From a virus, in the IMG/VR virus record IMGVR_UViG_3300007963_000015, positions 1 to 39,263 of that record: a stretch of 39,263 bases of DNA; one strand, 5' to 3'. The notes below the pieces were generated by a model. That model had not been told where the DNA came from, ran no database searches, and worked only from the letters and a program-made list of their open reading frames with translations. This document shows, one piece after another, positions 2,774-13,969 of the stretch (position 1 is the first letter of the stretch; the number at the start of each line of letters is the position of its first letter). A program made the translations under genes and the position numbers.

Positions 2774-2992
2774 TTATTTTCCTGTTAATGCATTTACTAA
2801 TGACTGAAGCGGGATCGATCCTCTCAATAGATCCCATACATAAACTGTTGCTAGTGCTATCAATGGACTAAACAATACTCCTAGCCACATTCCGGCTAGA
2901 AGATCAGAAATAAAACTAGAGCGATTAGTGATATGACGCTTAGCCACATCACGAACTCTTCCATTTCTTCGAACAATCTTTCCCCTAATCAT
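2774..2992 (-). CDS. Small membrane protein, 72 aa
   Basis: The N-terminal 25 residues are strongly basic (MIRGKIVRRNGRVRDVAKR). They are followed by one clear transmembrane segment at about residues 31-56 and a short polar tail. The basic end should stay in the cytoplasm. The ATG at 2992 has AGGAG eight bases upstream. A TTG at 2998 is also open but too close to the ribosome-binding site. It overlaps the preceding gene by 8 nt. Single-span early proteins of this kind can modify host membranes or exclude other phages, but no family is recognised. Confidence 0.66.
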   Translation of the reverse strand: MIRGKIVRRNGRVRDVAKRHITNRSSFISDLLAGMWLGVLFSPLIALATVYVWDLLRGSIPLQSLVNALTGK

Positions 2993-3332
2993 TCCCAAAT
3001 CTCCTTTTCATTTCTTTTTTGATTTGTTCTTCTTCTTTACCTAAGTCTTTAAGGAGTCCTTCATATCTATCTTTCTCAATCTGAATCAGATTTCTAACGT
3101 GGTCAGGATCTGAGTCATGATTGATATCCCTCTTAAATCTAATCAAACCTGTTTCATCGTCCTCCTCTCTATGTATTTCAGTTTCAGTATATGCATTATC
3201 ATCCTCTAGATTATGTTGAGATTGTGACTGCTGATGCCAACTACTACCCTCAATCTTTCTTTTGTTGTCGTGATACTCAGTGGTATCGAATGGCGAGTGA
3301 AATGTTCTGTCGTGTCGAATACGTTTTGGCAT
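2985..3332 (-). CDS. First gene of early operon; its start lies in a long inverted repeat, 115 aa
   Basis: The N-terminal third is basic and histidine-rich, the centre is acidic, and the C-terminal ~45 residues are a charged helix likely to form a coiled coil. I recognise no family. The ATG at 3332 follows AAAAGGAG by seven bases, so the frame open further upstream is ignored. This is the first gene after a good leftward promoter (3605-3633). Its ribosome-binding site and first ~23 codons form the left arm of the inverted repeat 3264-3572. In the mRNA the start would be paired with an upstream decayed copy, so translation may be strongly controlled by RNA folding. Confidence 0.7.
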   Translation of the reverse strand: MPKRIRHDRTFHSPFDTTEYHDNKRKIEGSSWHQQSQSQHNLEDDNAYTETEIHREEDDETGLIRFKRDINHDSDPDHVRNLIQIEKDRYEGLLKDLGKEEEQIKKEMKRRFGND

Positions 3333-3572
3333 GGTATGTCTCCTTTTCATGCCGCCTCCAATCAACTGACATCCAGCATGTCAACCCCAAAATTGCGTAG
3401 GATTTGCCGAGGAGCCACCGCACCGAAAGGCAAAGGCAAGCAATATTTTGGGGTTTACAGCTGGAAGTCAGTTGATAAAAGCGGTGCAGGAAAAGGAGAC
3501 TACCTGCTCTAAATGTGCACGACATCGACAGACATTTCCTAGACATTTCGATCCACTGAGTACCACGACAAC
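3264..3572. repeat. Long imperfect inverted repeat covering an operon leader and gene start
   Basis: Two arms of about 130 nt face each other around an axis at about 3418. Clear complementary blocks are 3264-3283 with 3553-3572 (20 nt, one difference that is a G-U pair in leftward RNA), 3338-3348 with 3490-3500 (11 of 11, including the Shine-Dalgarno site), 3361-3370 with 3467-3476 (10 of 10) and 3383-3392 with 3446-3455 (10 of 10). Every block has the same midpoint within one base. The left arm is the leader and first ~23 codons of the 115-aa gene. The right arm is a decayed inverted copy in which the start codon aligns with CTG. The leftward transcript starts just outside the right arm and would form one long rod. 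Confidence 0.9.
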
Positions 3573-3604
3573 TAAGGTTCCTTACAAACTCATTTGTTTT
3601 ACTT

Positions 3605-3633
3605 ATCTTATCTTGATACTTACTGTACCTCAA
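3605..3633 (-). promoter_or_regulatory. Sigma70-like leftward promoter of the early operon
   Basis: Read leftward, TTGAGG (3628-3633) is separated by 17 bases from TAAGAT (3605-3610). The expected transcript start is near 3598, just before the right arm of the inverted repeat. This would make the repeat the 5' leader of the operon that runs to the terminator at 11-66. Confidence 0.6.
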
Positions 3634-3652
3634 TTGCTATTTTAGTTTTAGT

Positions 3653-3699
3653 CTCAGCGGATTTTGTGACTACTCATCTATAGCCTCAGCGGATTTTGT
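3653..3699. repeat. Two 15-bp direct repeats beside the early promoter
   Basis: CTCAGCGGATTTTGT occurs at 3653-3667 and again at 3685-3699, exactly 32 bases (about three helical turns) apart. They lie 20-65 bases upstream of the leftward promoter, between the two giant inverted repeats. The spacing and position fit binding sites for a regulator, perhaps the double-HTH protein. That assignment is inference. Confidence 0.7.
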
Positions 3700-3814
3700 C
3701 TATATGCCACGAGTCTCTAGGGCCTAGGCCTCCTCAGCCCTAACCATTAGGCCCGCCCGCTTACCTCGGCTGCTCTGGATCTCCAGCTTAGAGCCGAGCC
3801 GCTAGGCCAAGGGC

Positions 3815-3846
3815 AAAAAAAACTCCGGGACCACTTGGCCCCGGAG
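3815..3846 (-). terminator. Intrinsic terminator after the 128-aa islet gene
   Basis: Read leftward, CTCCGGG and CCCGGAG form a GC-rich stem with a ten-base loop, followed by eight T. It lies 20 bases after the stop at 3867. A decayed version (CTCCGGGG...GTCCGACTG) is present at the matching place in the other arm, about 4882-4911, but without an intact stem or T run. Confidence 0.88.
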
Positions 3847-3866
3847 GAGATTGAACTGTTTTGGTG

Positions 3867-4253
3867 CTAGGCTATGTGCTTAGCAAACGTGGCTCTGATT
3901 GTCTCATTGCCCTTGGTCTGAATGGAATGGAACTCGATCTTGGTCCCCTTAGCAATCTTGAGATCCCGGAACTTGAGCGGTCCCTCAGCGATCAGAGTCA
4001 TGACTGCGAGGCAGAGGGCAGGATCGTAGTTGCTTGGGTAGCAAGACTTCTTGTCCTCAGTGACTGGGGAATGGACAGGTTGGTCGATCACAACAACGCC
4101 AAGACGCTCCTGTGAAGGGACCTTCTTGCCCGTGAGGTTGAAAATGCAGGCTGAACCTTTGACTGCGTCAATCTGATCCTTTAGGTCGAGGACATCGATA
4201 GTCTCGCCGAAGGGAATCAGAATGACAAGTTTCACCGTTTCTGGCTTGGACAT
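3867..4253 (-). CDS. Orphan 128-aa protein encoded in one arm of the giant inverted repeat
   Basis: No family is recognised. The protein alternates hydrophobic and polar residues in a way that suggests beta strands (VKLVILIPFG, LGVVVIDQP), has two to three cysteines, and lacks a signal peptide or membrane segment. The ATG at 4253 has AGAAAGG nine bases upstream, and the open upstream extension to 4304 is unlikely. Codons are GC-richer than in the rest of the phage, which suggests separate ancestry. The gene has its own terminator, but I see no convincing promoter. A full inverted copy lies at 4484-4864 with frameshifts and no start. A leftward RNA crossing both arms would fold the whole gene into a rod. 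Confidence 0.72.
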   Translation of the reverse strand: MSKPETVKLVILIPFGETIDVLDLKDQIDAVKGSACIFNLTGKKVPSQERLGVVVIDQPVHSPVTEDKKSCYPSNYDPALCLAVMTLIAEGPLKFRDLKIAKGTKIEFHSIQTKGNETIRATFAKHIA

Positions 4254-4483
4254 GATATTAACCTTTCTAAAAAAATGTGGTGTCCAATCTCGGAGGAACC
4301 GCAAGAGGGGAAGCGTCCAGCGTCAACCCAAATCTACGATTTTATCTTGCCCCCGCCCCACTGGACGGAGGGCAATAGAAAATCTTTGTTAGATTTGCGG
4401 TTTACGCAGGAGGAAGTCCCCTCTAGCGTCGTTCTGGAGGATTGGATACCTCTCATTTTTTTGATGGAAAGGTTAATAGCATC

Positions 4484-4864
4484 CTGTCCGTCTAAGCCAG
4501 ATACGGTCTGAAACGTGAGGAAATACCTGATTCTTCGGCGAGACCAATCGATTTGTCCGTCCTCGACCCAGAAGGTCAGATCAGACCAGTCTCAAAGATT
4601 CATGCTACTGCTTTCATCCTCACCAGCAAGAAGTCCCCACAGAGCAACTTGAACTGTGTTGTTGTGATTGACCACCAACTCTCTTCCATATCACTGAGGA
4701 CACTTCTTGCCTACCTCGCAACTTAACGATCCTGCCCTCGCCTCACGCTCTGACTGATCGTGGGACCGCACATTTCTAGGATCTCATTTGCTAAGGGGGC
4801 CGAGACCTGTTCACCATTCAGACCGGCTAATGAGACTATCGCCTCATTGCTCAGCACAGCCTAG
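4484..4864 (+). pseudogene. Decayed inverted copy of the 128-aa islet gene
   Basis: On the plus strand this 381-nt stretch aligns end to end with the 387-nt coding strand of the gene at 3867-4253. Shared blocks are TTCGGCGAGAC, GTTGTTGTGAT, CACTGAGGAC, TTGCTAAGGGG, CCATTCAGACC and the stop context AGCCTAGCACCA. The start codon position is CTG, and several indels that are not multiples of three destroy the reading frame. It cannot make the protein. Similarity continues outside the gene on both sides, so it is either a remnant of an inverted duplication or one half of a selected fold. Confidence 0.85.
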
Positions 4865-5096
4865 CACCACGTCTCACTCATCCTCCGGGGCTGTGGTCCG
4901 ACTGATTCTTTGCCCTTGGCCGCATTGTAACTGCGTGACCGTTAATACAGCGGCGAACTCTAGGATGGAGATCCTTTTCGCTGACCTCGGTATTTGCGGG
5001 CAAGGGCTGATAATGGTTAGGTGTCTGAGGGGGTCTAGGCCCCCCTGTAGTTGATGCAGTTCTGATATATATATCCGGCATCCACGATTTTTAATT

Positions 5097-10832: not shown

Positions 10833-11164
10833 TGATAAATATGCCAATGAATTTTAGTCAAACCTCTGGCGGTGGCGGTGGCTATCGAAGCGAAAGTGGT
10901 TTTTCTAGCTTTGGAGACGTTGCTAAAAGACAACTTGAAAAAGAGTACAAAAAGAAGAAAGTTAAAAAACTCGTAGCAGAAGCACAAGCAAATCATTATC
11001 GAGGGGCGGGTGATTTGCTTAATAGGATTAGGTTTGGTATGTCTTTGACTGACGCACAAATTGCACAACACAATGTTGCTACAGGTCAGAATCCTCGAAC
11101 TACTAGACCTAATTTTACAGATATGCTTGGATTCAAATACGCTAAAAATTTAGGAGTTCTTTGA
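10832..11164 (+). CDS. Unknown small basic protein, 110 aa
   Basis: The N-terminus is glycine- and serine-rich, followed by a strongly basic helix (RQLEKEYKKKKVKKLVAEAQ) and a mixed C-terminal half. No family is recognised. The start is uncertain: ATG at 10832 overlaps the preceding stop (TAATG), and two further in-frame ATGs lie at 10841 and 10847, none with a clear Shine-Dalgarno site. The stop overlaps the next start as TGATG. Located among portal and scaffold genes, it may be a minor virion protein. Confidence 0.6.
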   Translation: MINMPMNFSQTSGGGGGYRSESGFSSFGDVAKRQLEKEYKKKKVKKLVAEAQANHYRGAGDLLNRIRFGMSLTDAQIAQHNVATGQNPRTTRPNFTDMLGFKYAKNLGVL

Positions 11165-12492
11165 TGAGAAATCAAACAGGAATAAATGCAATTGAGGAGC
11201 TTTATGGAGTTCCATCACATAAAAAGTTTATTGACTTAAGACCTAAACCAAAACCAACACAGTTAAAGCAAGGTGGTTGGCGACGGAAAAGACAGCCTAG
11301 AGCAGGTACAGGGACCCATGAAACAGCAAAAATGGCTTACGACTTTATGGAGCCGGGATATGTTCATGCCGCTAGGACTGGAACAATCCCAGAGTCAATC
11401 TTTGGCAAGGCAATGCTTGGCGTAGAAACAACACTTGATCTTGCTCCCGGTCTTGGCAAAGTCGTTTCAGCGGCAATACCCTTTGGATTGATGAGAAAAG
11501 TAGATCCTGTCGAAATCCAAAGAAAAACTATTAACATAGGTGAACAAATAAGCAATACCGACATTTTTGATATACCTACTCTTGAAAAGTATATGCCTGA
11601 ACAGTTGGCTATGTCTATGCATAGACTGCCTCCAGTTCAACAACAAAAAGATATGCTTGAAACTACTAACCTATTAGATCTTATTCAGGGGGCTACTAAA
11701 AAAGAAACTAAAAAATGGCGTGAGAGTGTAAAAAGTTTGCCAGCCAGCCAGAGGGTGGGATTCCCAATCCATAACATTGACACAATGTATCCAGCAGGTA
11801 GTGACACAGGAGCCATTCTCGCCGATCAAATAGGATCAGCTCAGAATATGGATGATTTAGCGTTTAACCCTAACCTCCCTTTGTTTCAAGCAACTGCAAG
11901 AGCACAAGGAAACATTGAAACAGCCTCAAAACGCATTATTGAAAAACTTGGAAGTGGTGAAATAGAAAGAACTGTAGGCCACAAACAAAAAGCAAAACTT
12001 CTTAAAGATTACATTGCCGCAGAAGCCGACCGACAAGCACATCTAAAAGCATTTCCACAGGTAAAAAATAAAACAAAAGAAATCTTTAGAGAGTCTAAAA
12101 CCGAAGCAATGCGTCTTGGTGATAAATACGAAGCAGATGAAGTAACCCGCTTGTACGAAGAACACGCTTTTGGAAAAGGTCATGGAGACGAGTCTGCTAA
12201 ATATTTTCTTCCAGAGTTTCAAGCACAAGCGGCAAATGACGCAAAGCATTATCGTGCTGAAGAGTTCATGGAACAAATCAATGCACGAACAGAAGCAAAA
12301 GCAATAGAAACAGTTAAACGTAGCATTCCCGCTCAAACAAAAGAGATCAAGAATCAAATTCAAGAAACAGGAACCTACGATCCTAAAAACCGAATGCAAA
12401 GAGGTTTTGGAGAAGATGCTGAAGCACTTAGACAAATGCAAAAGAATCTTCAGTCGTACAATCCAATGAATATGAGAATTAGAAGTGTCTAA
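11164..12492 (+). CDS. Large unknown virion-region protein, 442 aa, with a shared N-terminal motif
   Basis: No family is recognised. Near the start (about residues 17-30) is SHKKFIDLRPKPKP, very similar in place and sequence to PPKSFVDLRSNKP in the next gene, so the two share an N-terminal module. The rest is a short hydrophobic stretch (about 80-105) and then a long, charged, helical region rich in K, E, Q and A. The ATG at 11164 has AGGAG seven bases upstream; the TTG at 11161 is too close to it. It overlaps the previous gene as TGATG and the next by 8 nt. Size, helix content and position suggest a protein packaged and ejected with the DNA. Confidence 0.7.
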   Translation: MRNQTGINAIEELYGVPSHKKFIDLRPKPKPTQLKQGGWRRKRQPRAGTGTHETAKMAYDFMEPGYVHAARTGTIPESIFGKAMLGVETTLDLAPGLGKVVSAAIPFGLMRKVDPVEIQRKTINIGEQISNTDIFDIPTLEKYMPEQLAMSMHRLPPVQQQKDMLETTNLLDLIQGATKKETKKWRESVKSLPASQRVGFPIHNIDTMYPAGSDTGAILADQIGSAQNMDDLAFNPNLPLFQATARAQGNIETASKRIIEKLGSGEIERTVGHKQKAKLLKDYIAAEADRQAHLKAFPQVKNKTKEIFRESKTEAMRLGDKYEADEVTRLYEEHAFGKGHGDESAKYFLPEFQAQAANDAKHYRAEEFMEQINARTEAKAIETVKRSIPAQTKEIKNQIQETGTYDPKNRMQRGFGEDAEALRQMQKNLQSYNPMNMRIRSV

Positions 12493-13969
12493 AAAAAGAG
12501 ATAATCAAGTAGTTAATGAGTTCATTTTTGGAATGGGATCACAGACTCCTCCAAAAAGTTTTGTTGATTTACGCTCTAATAAACCTGCGGCTCCTAATGC
12601 AACCATTGGGCCAAGACCTTCTCCATCCATGAGAAGCCAACAAAGAAGACAAGCACATTTAACAGGTAACTATCCCAACCCTTTGATTGAACCTCGTGGA
12701 ATTAATCAACTTGGTGCAACTCCTCGTAGGGGCGACTTTCCTGCGGGGACGGCTGAAGATGTAAAAGATTTTACTAAAAATGCAGTTGGATTCTACTACG
12801 GAGAAACACCGCAGGAAGTTGCAACAGGTCTTGCATTTGAAGCGGTTATTCCAATAGTAGGTGGTGCTTTATGGAAAACAGGAAAAGGCATTTATGGTGC
12901 TGGCAAATCAATAAGGCAAGCGTACCAATACGCAGACTCAATGGTTCCGGGCAATAGACCGCCTAGACCGCCTAGACCAAAAACTCCTACTGCACCTGTT
13001 AACCCAGCAGACGTTGAAGGTAGACGCAATGTTCTAAAAGGTGGTCTTGTTGTTGCCGCAGGTGGAGCCGCCGCCGCTTCAAAAAACGTAGAAGAAGCGG
13101 TTAATTTTGGACAGCAAGTTTTAAGAGGACTTAAAGGACAAGGCAGAAGAGTTTTGCCTGAAGGTTTTTTACAGGGTTTTGGAAAATATAACTACCAAAA
13201 TTTGAGCAAACGTTTTGGAAAAGAAATGAAAAAGATGACTGATGACTTTAGCCCAGAGTTTGATCCAAATGATTTTGGTGGCATAGGATACGTTCGAGAA
13301 GAAGCGGCTAACTTTGTGCTAGATGACATGATTCAAGGTGTTGTATCTCGTACTATTCCTACGCTTCCCCAAAGAGCAAAAAAACTGTTAGGATTAGGCA
13401 AGGATGCAAAACATCCATTTGTTATGTCTGATATTGAAGAGGGCATAGAAAAGGCGATGTTGAAAAATGTGCATCGCTCAGGGGATTCTAAAGTCCAACC
13501 ACTTTTTAATATGACTTCACATATAGATAGCATGGTTGGTCGAGAAAAAAATGAACTTCTTGCCGCAAATGCAAGGTATAGAAAAAGAATACAACAACAT
13601 ATTGATTCTCAGTTTGAAAAACCCCTCACTGATATGACTCCAGAACAAAGTAAAAAGTATATAGAAAAACAAATAAAGTCTTTACAATCGTCCATCACAA
13701 GAAATGAACAACTTTTGAACTCTATTGACAGAGCACCAACAGATCTTATTACTGAAAAACAAGTTCGAGGAATTTTACAAGAACGAATGATGCAGAATGT
13801 CTTAGGTGAAATAAAACACAAGCTAGGTAATTGGAAAGGGAAAGATAAAAAAGAATATCTCAAAAAGTTTCAGGAAGAAATAAAAAAAAGGCTAGATGAC
13901 TTTGACTACATTAACACTGTAAAAAGGCAACGTGGTAAATACGCAAAGAACGGATCGCCTATTGTTTAA
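12485..13969 (+). CDS. Large unknown virion-region protein, 494 aa, with shared N-terminal motif and Tat-like segment
   Basis: The N-terminus (about residues 10-34) carries the same K-(K/S)-F-(I/V)-D-L-R module as the preceding gene, so the pair may be distant paralogues or share a packaging tag. A proline-rich linker (about 158-174) is followed by RRNVLKGGLVVAAGG (180-194). That resembles a twin-arginine signal core but lies far from the N-terminus. The remainder is charged and helical. The start is GTG with a poor ribosome-binding site. The gene overlaps its neighbours at both ends. A role as an ejected or internal head protein is possible. I do not recognise a family. Confidence 0.68.
   Translation: MSKKRDNQVVNEFIFGMGSQTPPKSFVDLRSNKPAAPNATIGPRPSPSMRSQQRRQAHLTGNYPNPLIEPRGINQLGATPRRGDFPAGTAEDVKDFTKNAVGFYYGETPQEVATGLAFEAVIPIVGGALWKTGKGIYGAGKSIRQAYQYADSMVPGNRPPRPPRPKTPTAPVNPADVEGRRNVLKGGLVVAAGGAAAASKNVEEAVNFGQQVLRGLKGQGRRVLPEGFLQGFGKYNYQNLSKRFGKEMKKMTDDFSPEFDPNDFGGIGYVREEAANFVLDDMIQGVVSRTIPTLPQRAKKLLGLGKDAKHPFVMSDIEEGIEKAMLKNVHRSGDSKVQPLFNMTSHIDSMVGREKNELLAANARYRKRIQQHIDSQFEKPLTDMTPEQSKKYIEKQIKSLQSSITRNEQLLNSIDRAPTDLITEKQVRGILQERMMQNVLGEIKHKLGNWKGKDKKEYLKKFQEEIKKRLDDFDYINTVKRQRGKYAKNGSPIV

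Follow-up and report, generated by a model that had tools for sequence, protein, structure and literature searches.

A conserved rod-forming inverted repeat at the head of a leftward phage operon and its putative role as a structured leader

The DNA analyzed here, called the window below, is the whole stretch of 39,263 bases of an IMG/VR virus record that encodes a distant P22-like terminase as well as RecT- and YqaJ-like genes. Among cultured relatives we found no DNA match and only distant P22-like terminases of less than 60% identity, and prokaryote genomes held no relative of the neighboring gene. The comparisons below use related contigs, designated by L and a number, of which L008 is used most; 2 adjacent genes of the window at 11161–13969 are highly diverged from L008 at the protein level (dN 0.21 and 0.40) amid well-conserved structural genes. 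The locus lies at the head of a leftward operon and comprises the following features:

2985–3332, minus strand: first gene of the leftward operon, an ORF of 115 aa with its ATG at 3332
3261–3418, minus strand: 3' arm of the inverted repeat IR-A, which comprises leader sequence, the ribosome-binding site and codons 1 to 24 of the first gene
3340–3347, minus strand: ribosome-binding site AAAAGGAG, base-paired within the rod (computed unpaired probability 0.001 with the leader)
3380–3458, minus strand: apical domain of IR-A, with ~90% identity to L020, whose arms cannot be aligned with those of the window
3419–3575, minus strand: 5' arm of IR-A, a noncoding leader complementary to the 3' arm (11 of 156 sites differ from L008)
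3605–3633, minus strand: candidate promoter TTGAGG-17-TAAGAT, a weak match with 8 of 12 consensus bases
3649–3667, minus strand: direct repeat ACAAAATCCGCTGAGACTA of 19 bp, a candidate operator or promoter element
3681–3699, minus strand: second 19-bp copy of the direct repeat
3732–5030, minus strand: IR-B, a larger rod adjoining IR-A, with its axis at about 4366 and a tip of the same apical architecture at 4322–4405
3816–3846, minus strand: intrinsic terminator that follows the IR-B ORF and is complementary in sequence to the 5' arm of IR-B
3867–4253, minus strand: IR-B ORF of 128 aa, wholly inside the IR-B 3' arm (dN/dS 0.39 versus L008)
5066–5088, minus strand: motif ATCGTGGATGCCGGATATATATA resembling a promoter, located at the outer edge of IR-B and retained by the relatives

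IR-A is one continuous imperfect inverted repeat (3261–3575) with an axis at 3418–3419 and small bulges of 1 to 2 bases. Its arms share ~76% identity when the window is compared with itself (blastn, E ~1e-35), and its self-complementarity score is 141 compared to a maximum of 35 among 1831 other windows of equal length in the same genome. The minus-strand RNA of 3250–3600 folds computationally into a single rod of -170.8 kcal/mol versus -90 ± 5 kcal/mol for shuffled sequences (z -15.8), and this z together with the self-complementarity score rules out a chance origin. An earlier note on this DNA had described a ~310-nt rod of 4 complementary blocks heading the leftward operon; we find a rod of ~315 nt in which these blocks are 19/20, 11/11, 10/10 and 10/10 complementary around axes of 3418.0, 3419.0, 3418.5 and 3419.0. 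A chimera of assembly or amplification is unlikely because rods recur in contigs from different samples with arms that have diverged and co-vary. Searches of the window and 5 relatives against the Rfam families gave no match at gathering score, and the best further match was at chance level (E 0.45).

The promoter at 3605–3633, which the earlier note had called good, turned out to be weak only and falls below the threshold of our promoter scanner (9 of 12 consensus bases), although most of it is conserved in L008. Upstream of the leftward operon stands the direct repeat ACAAAATCCGCTGAG (3649–3667 and 3681–3699), both copies of which are fully conserved in L008. L020 and L061 also have the motif AATCYGCT from this repeat at the base of their rod, and L015 has it in front of the operon.

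Rods at the position of IR-A (A rods) precede the first leftward gene in 5 lineages: the window with its near-identical relatives L004 and L006, L008 (314 nt), L020 and L033 (472 nt), L061 and L077 (204 nt), and L084 (327 nt). The arms of these rods are largely unrelated between lineages, and the first genes are different. Fold z values are about -12.4 for L008, -12.3 to -13.0 for L020 and -12.5 for L061, and the L084 rod reaches -170 kcal/mol over 351 nt. Self-comparison detected no A rod in L015, L028 and L029. By eye, a hairpin with an A/U-rich stem (AAAAACUUUU) and a CAAC-containing loop recurs in the structured leaders of relatives, at about 4680–4745 in L015, 3690–3750 in L028, 2870–2935 in L020 and 4515–4580 in L061.

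In the window, the rod encloses AAAAGGAG and 24 codons counted from the ATG at 3332, in good agreement with the ribosome-binding site and ~23 codons that had been placed in the paired region before. The earlier proposal that the rod hides its own translation start is likewise borne out by computation: in the window and L008, the ribosome-binding site has an unpaired probability of 0.001 in the full leader, which rises to 0.90 once the 5' arm is deleted. The corresponding computed values are 0.014 and 0.53 for L084 and, with looser burial, 0.14 and 0.44 for L020; a start that is paired and becomes free on removal of the leader is thus computed for 4 of the 5 lineages. Burial of the start is not universal, since the ribosome-binding site of L061 lies outside the rod and has a computed unpaired probability of 0.63 with or without the 5' arm. 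The rod ends 72 nt past the start codon in the window and 71 nt past it in L084 (i.e., ~24 codons into the gene), and the tip is separated from the ribosome-binding site by 32 to 33 nt in the window, L008 and L020, with an intervening sequence that differs between the window and L020. A Pfam search with the 115-aa product of the first gene gave no match.

Synonymous sites are nearly saturated between the window and L008 (dS about 0.6 to 1.3; 0.56 to 1.24 in the neighboring operon genes), and the noncoding 5' arm of IR-A differs at 7% of its sites. Within the first gene, dS is 0.27 in the part covered by the rod versus 1.30 in the remainder, with synonymous-codon counts alone not significant (P = 0.19). 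All 5 double changes in IR-A are still paired (0.47 expected, p = 7e-6), as are 21 of the 25 in IR-B (5.7 expected, p = 3e-13). These are the co-varying pairs that the earlier note had pointed to as a check; many are transversions in both rods, and those of IR-B are clustered. The same note had taken the 5' arm for a decayed upstream copy, a view not supported by the strong conservation of this arm and its co-variation with the 3' arm. Decay is ruled out by conservation for IR-A and by evenly spread interruptions for the rods at the IR-B position (B rods) and the A rod of L020. Judging from these alignments, the rod is clearly kept by evolution and not decaying.

The tip opens with GUAAAC and closes with GUUGAC. 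Between them lie the stems P1, P2 and P3, of which P1 and P2 are separated by a one-sided bulge and P2 and P3 by an internal loop; P3 carries a C-RGUG-G tetraloop. The same architecture is present in 6 sequences including both IR-B tips (window and L008) as well as L020 and L061, so that the apical domain is common to 4 lineages. Over 79 bp, the tip is 90% identical between the window and L020 compared to 69% for the terminase and portal genes, and 5 of the 18 consensus pairs show two-sided changes. In the P3 stem (CCGUCC/GGGCGG), B-type tips keep a U-G pair on the sense strand. A gapped pattern of the tip matched this phage group only when searched against IMG/VR, and a covariance model found full-length tips in these loci only. 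The rods of L084 are without this tip; by eye, its B rod keeps GUAAACC/GGCUGAC and not the tetraloop stem. A candidate hairpin of L028 with a CCAGUGG loop was rejected, its fold not being significant (z -1.05).

IR-B spans 3805–4921 by blastn and continues at lower identity to about 3732–5030, giving a length of about 1.2 to 1.3 kb, for which a single rod without branches and with a free energy of -736 kcal/mol is predicted over 1328 nt. The product of its ORF belongs to no known family (no Pfam match) and gave no usable structure model (AlphaFold, pLDDT 41). This protein evolves faster than most other genes in comparison with L008 (many at dN/dS 0.02 to 0.1). No homology was detectable between this ORF and the ORF at the same site in L020, and the ORFs found there in relatives are not recognizably homologous. 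L084 also has a B rod, of 1.0 kb, around an ORF, and the transcripts of L020 and L061 at this position are structured but branched or hairpin-rich. In L015, the coding sequence of the ORF itself (4027–4506, minus strand) is a succession of local near-perfect hairpins, an alternative way to equally heavy structure. Wherever the sequence of a close relative spans the site of ATCGTGGATGCCGGATATATATA, this motif is conserved, even if the relative lacks a rod.

Our preferred reading, to which we give roughly even odds (about 0.5), is that IR-A is the conserved structured leader of the leftward operon, with the start of the first gene locked in the rod and the tip as a likely docking site for a factor. 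The minus-strand transcript would be the functional molecule. Transcription would yield the 5' arm first, and the emerging 3' arm would zip onto it and thereby lock the ribosome-binding site together with ~24 codons at the beginning of the first gene, so that burial of the start would control translation. The apical domain, with its C-RGUG-G tetraloop and GUAAAC/GUUGAC base, is the part kept in sequence and would be the docking site for a phage or host factor or for RNA polymerase, timing gene expression; the tip probably binds something and is a putative regulator site. A role as RNA is favored because the edges of the rod track the gene start, the spacing of the tip is constant at 32 to 33 nt and the start is buried in 4 of 5 lineages, and also because the U-G pair of P3 is kept in the sense of B-type tips. 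Since the first genes differ between lineages and the start of L061 is free, the rod may serve the operon message as a whole and not any one gene.

The nearest known layout is the nutL–N leader of phage lambda, where a structured RNA similarly precedes the ribosome-binding site of the first gene, at the head of the first leftward early message. As far as the account in PMC5725501 goes, which cites RNase III work, the lambda leader structure between nutL and the N start is linked to translational repression. IR-A differs in its shape, an unbranched rod of 315 nt, and in its direct pairing with the start site. For comparison with the RNase III-sensitive hairpin of lambda next to the start of its first early gene, the hairpin seen here has an outermost helix of 20 bp. 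No boxA match with up to 2 mismatches lies in 3138–5084 (33 in the whole window, below a chance mean of 41), no boxB-type loop was recognized and no N-like protein was identified. We call IR-A a structured phage leader, i.e., a known kind of element, in unusual form.

Another explanation is that the locus controls transcription like lambda nut or the put RNAs of phage HK022, which are cis-acting RNA structures near the promoter on 2 phage transcripts. The tip, transcribed shortly after the promoter, would then modify RNA polymerase for terminator read-through, with the rod as a scaffold and burial of the start as a side effect. This would fit with a tip that heads 2 transcripts in the window and L008 as putL and putR do (PMC9378689), with the persistence of rod and tip while the first genes differ, and with the complementarity of the IR-B 5' arm to the terminator at 3816–3846. 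However, put RNAs act on RNA polymerase as ~70 nt with 2 stem-loops (PMC9378689), while IR-A is one long unbranched rod with a single apical stem and another tip. The lack of boxA enrichment or an Rfam match and the absence of this tip from the L084 rods also speak against this explanation, which we consider unlikely.

Over 8 rods, the mismatches comprise 47 G-U and 66 A-C (no G-U excess), and strand-specific shuffles indicate about equal excess stability on both strands for the A rods and IR-B. This balance and the equally good folding of both strands are unlike the usual outcome of selection on a sense RNA and therefore oppose a purely RNA reading. They could instead reflect a role at the DNA level, with complementarity kept in the DNA as a hairpin or cruciform, e.g., as a site of replication, priming or recombination, and for more than half of the compensations G-U is not an available intermediate. 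Yet the edges of the rods follow gene starts and features of the transcript, P3 keeps its sense U-G pair, and no replication protein or site is tied to the repeat, which leaves such a role improbable. In the rod of L020 at 1461–1932, the antisense fold is -253 kcal/mol versus -214 kcal/mol for the sense fold, and the sense mismatches are 13 A-C versus 3 G-U.

The lengths of the helices bear on a different role, as an RNA shield or decoy whose near-complete pairing would block single-strand ribonucleases or serve as a sink for a double-strand binder while its helices stay too short for RNase III. The longest helices of the B rods have 16 bp in the window, 16 bp in L008 and 11 bp in L084, below all simulations of random decay (60 runs each; smallest longest helix 17, 17 and 14 bp, respectively), and the A rod of L020 stops at 10 bp (0 of 200 simulations as short). 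The transcripts of relatives at the IR-B position, which are over-structured to varying degree, would also agree with a shield. On the other hand, the longest helices of IR-A (20 bp in the window, 14 bp in L008 and 13 bp in L084) show no significant cap compared to random decay, and a shield leaves the conserved tip without reason. The helix lengths of the A rod of L061 are indistinguishable from random decay. All in all, we regard this role as rather improbable, too.

That the rods are a functionless mutational by-product, an inverted duplication with arms kept alike by template switching during replication, is very improbable and already disfavored by these data: hairpins and multi-base compensatory changes can arise and persist through template switching (PMC8794818) and the double changes of IR-B are clustered (14 of 21 near another versus 7.4 expected, P = 0.011), but the noncoding arm is strongly conserved, the tip is conserved in sequence, the site is the same in 5 lineages and the B rods are without long perfect tracts. 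As a contributor to the upkeep of the rod, arm-to-arm template switching is likely by contrast, because of the clustering in IR-B and because by our own count about 10 of the 26 double changes that stayed paired across the two rods belong to the G-U-passable kind compared to 61% of instantaneous compensations in rRNA (PMC8794818). It leaves the conserved tip, the conserved arm and the capped helices unexplained.

Large structured elements are known from other systems as well. Some of the GOLLD and ROOL RNAs are carried by phages. These large ornate bacterial RNAs, as far as they are described in PMC12286853, differ from the rods in being branched and forming homo-oligomeric complexes, and their Rfam models have no match here. 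The coding palindromes of Nematomorpha mitochondria are long inverted repeats over protein-coding sequence for which template switching was proposed to maintain the arms; they are perfect with both arms coding (PMC6649704), while here one arm codes and pairing is imperfect. Obelisks, in the features given in PMC11922315, resemble IR-B in shape only, being unbranched, about 1.2 kb long and with one ORF in one arm. Unlike these circular RNAs without DNA counterpart, IR-B is part of the DNA in a 39-kb tailed-phage record, and the rods lie in this record of 39,263 bases as well as in independent DNA-metagenome contigs. No Oblin was recognized in the IR-B ORF by Pfam. Tentatively, and with less confidence than we have in the leader, we suggest that the paired set of rods, one over the start of the first gene and one around the whole adjacent gene, may form a new class of phage element whose arms diverge freely yet stay complementary and whose larger rod has helices capped at 11 to 16 bp. 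Such elements would share the shape of obelisks or the delta agent but be part of the messages of a DNA phage.

At this locus, coding sequence and a leader of hundreds of nucleotides have evolved jointly so as to remain paired, which makes it a compact example from nature. It is relevant to the timing of first-gene expression in phages and to the ways in which long RNA rods might escape RNase III. It also bears on the shares of selection and template switching in what is called "compensatory evolution", which can be tested here because the compensations are clustered, rich in transversions and without G-U bias.
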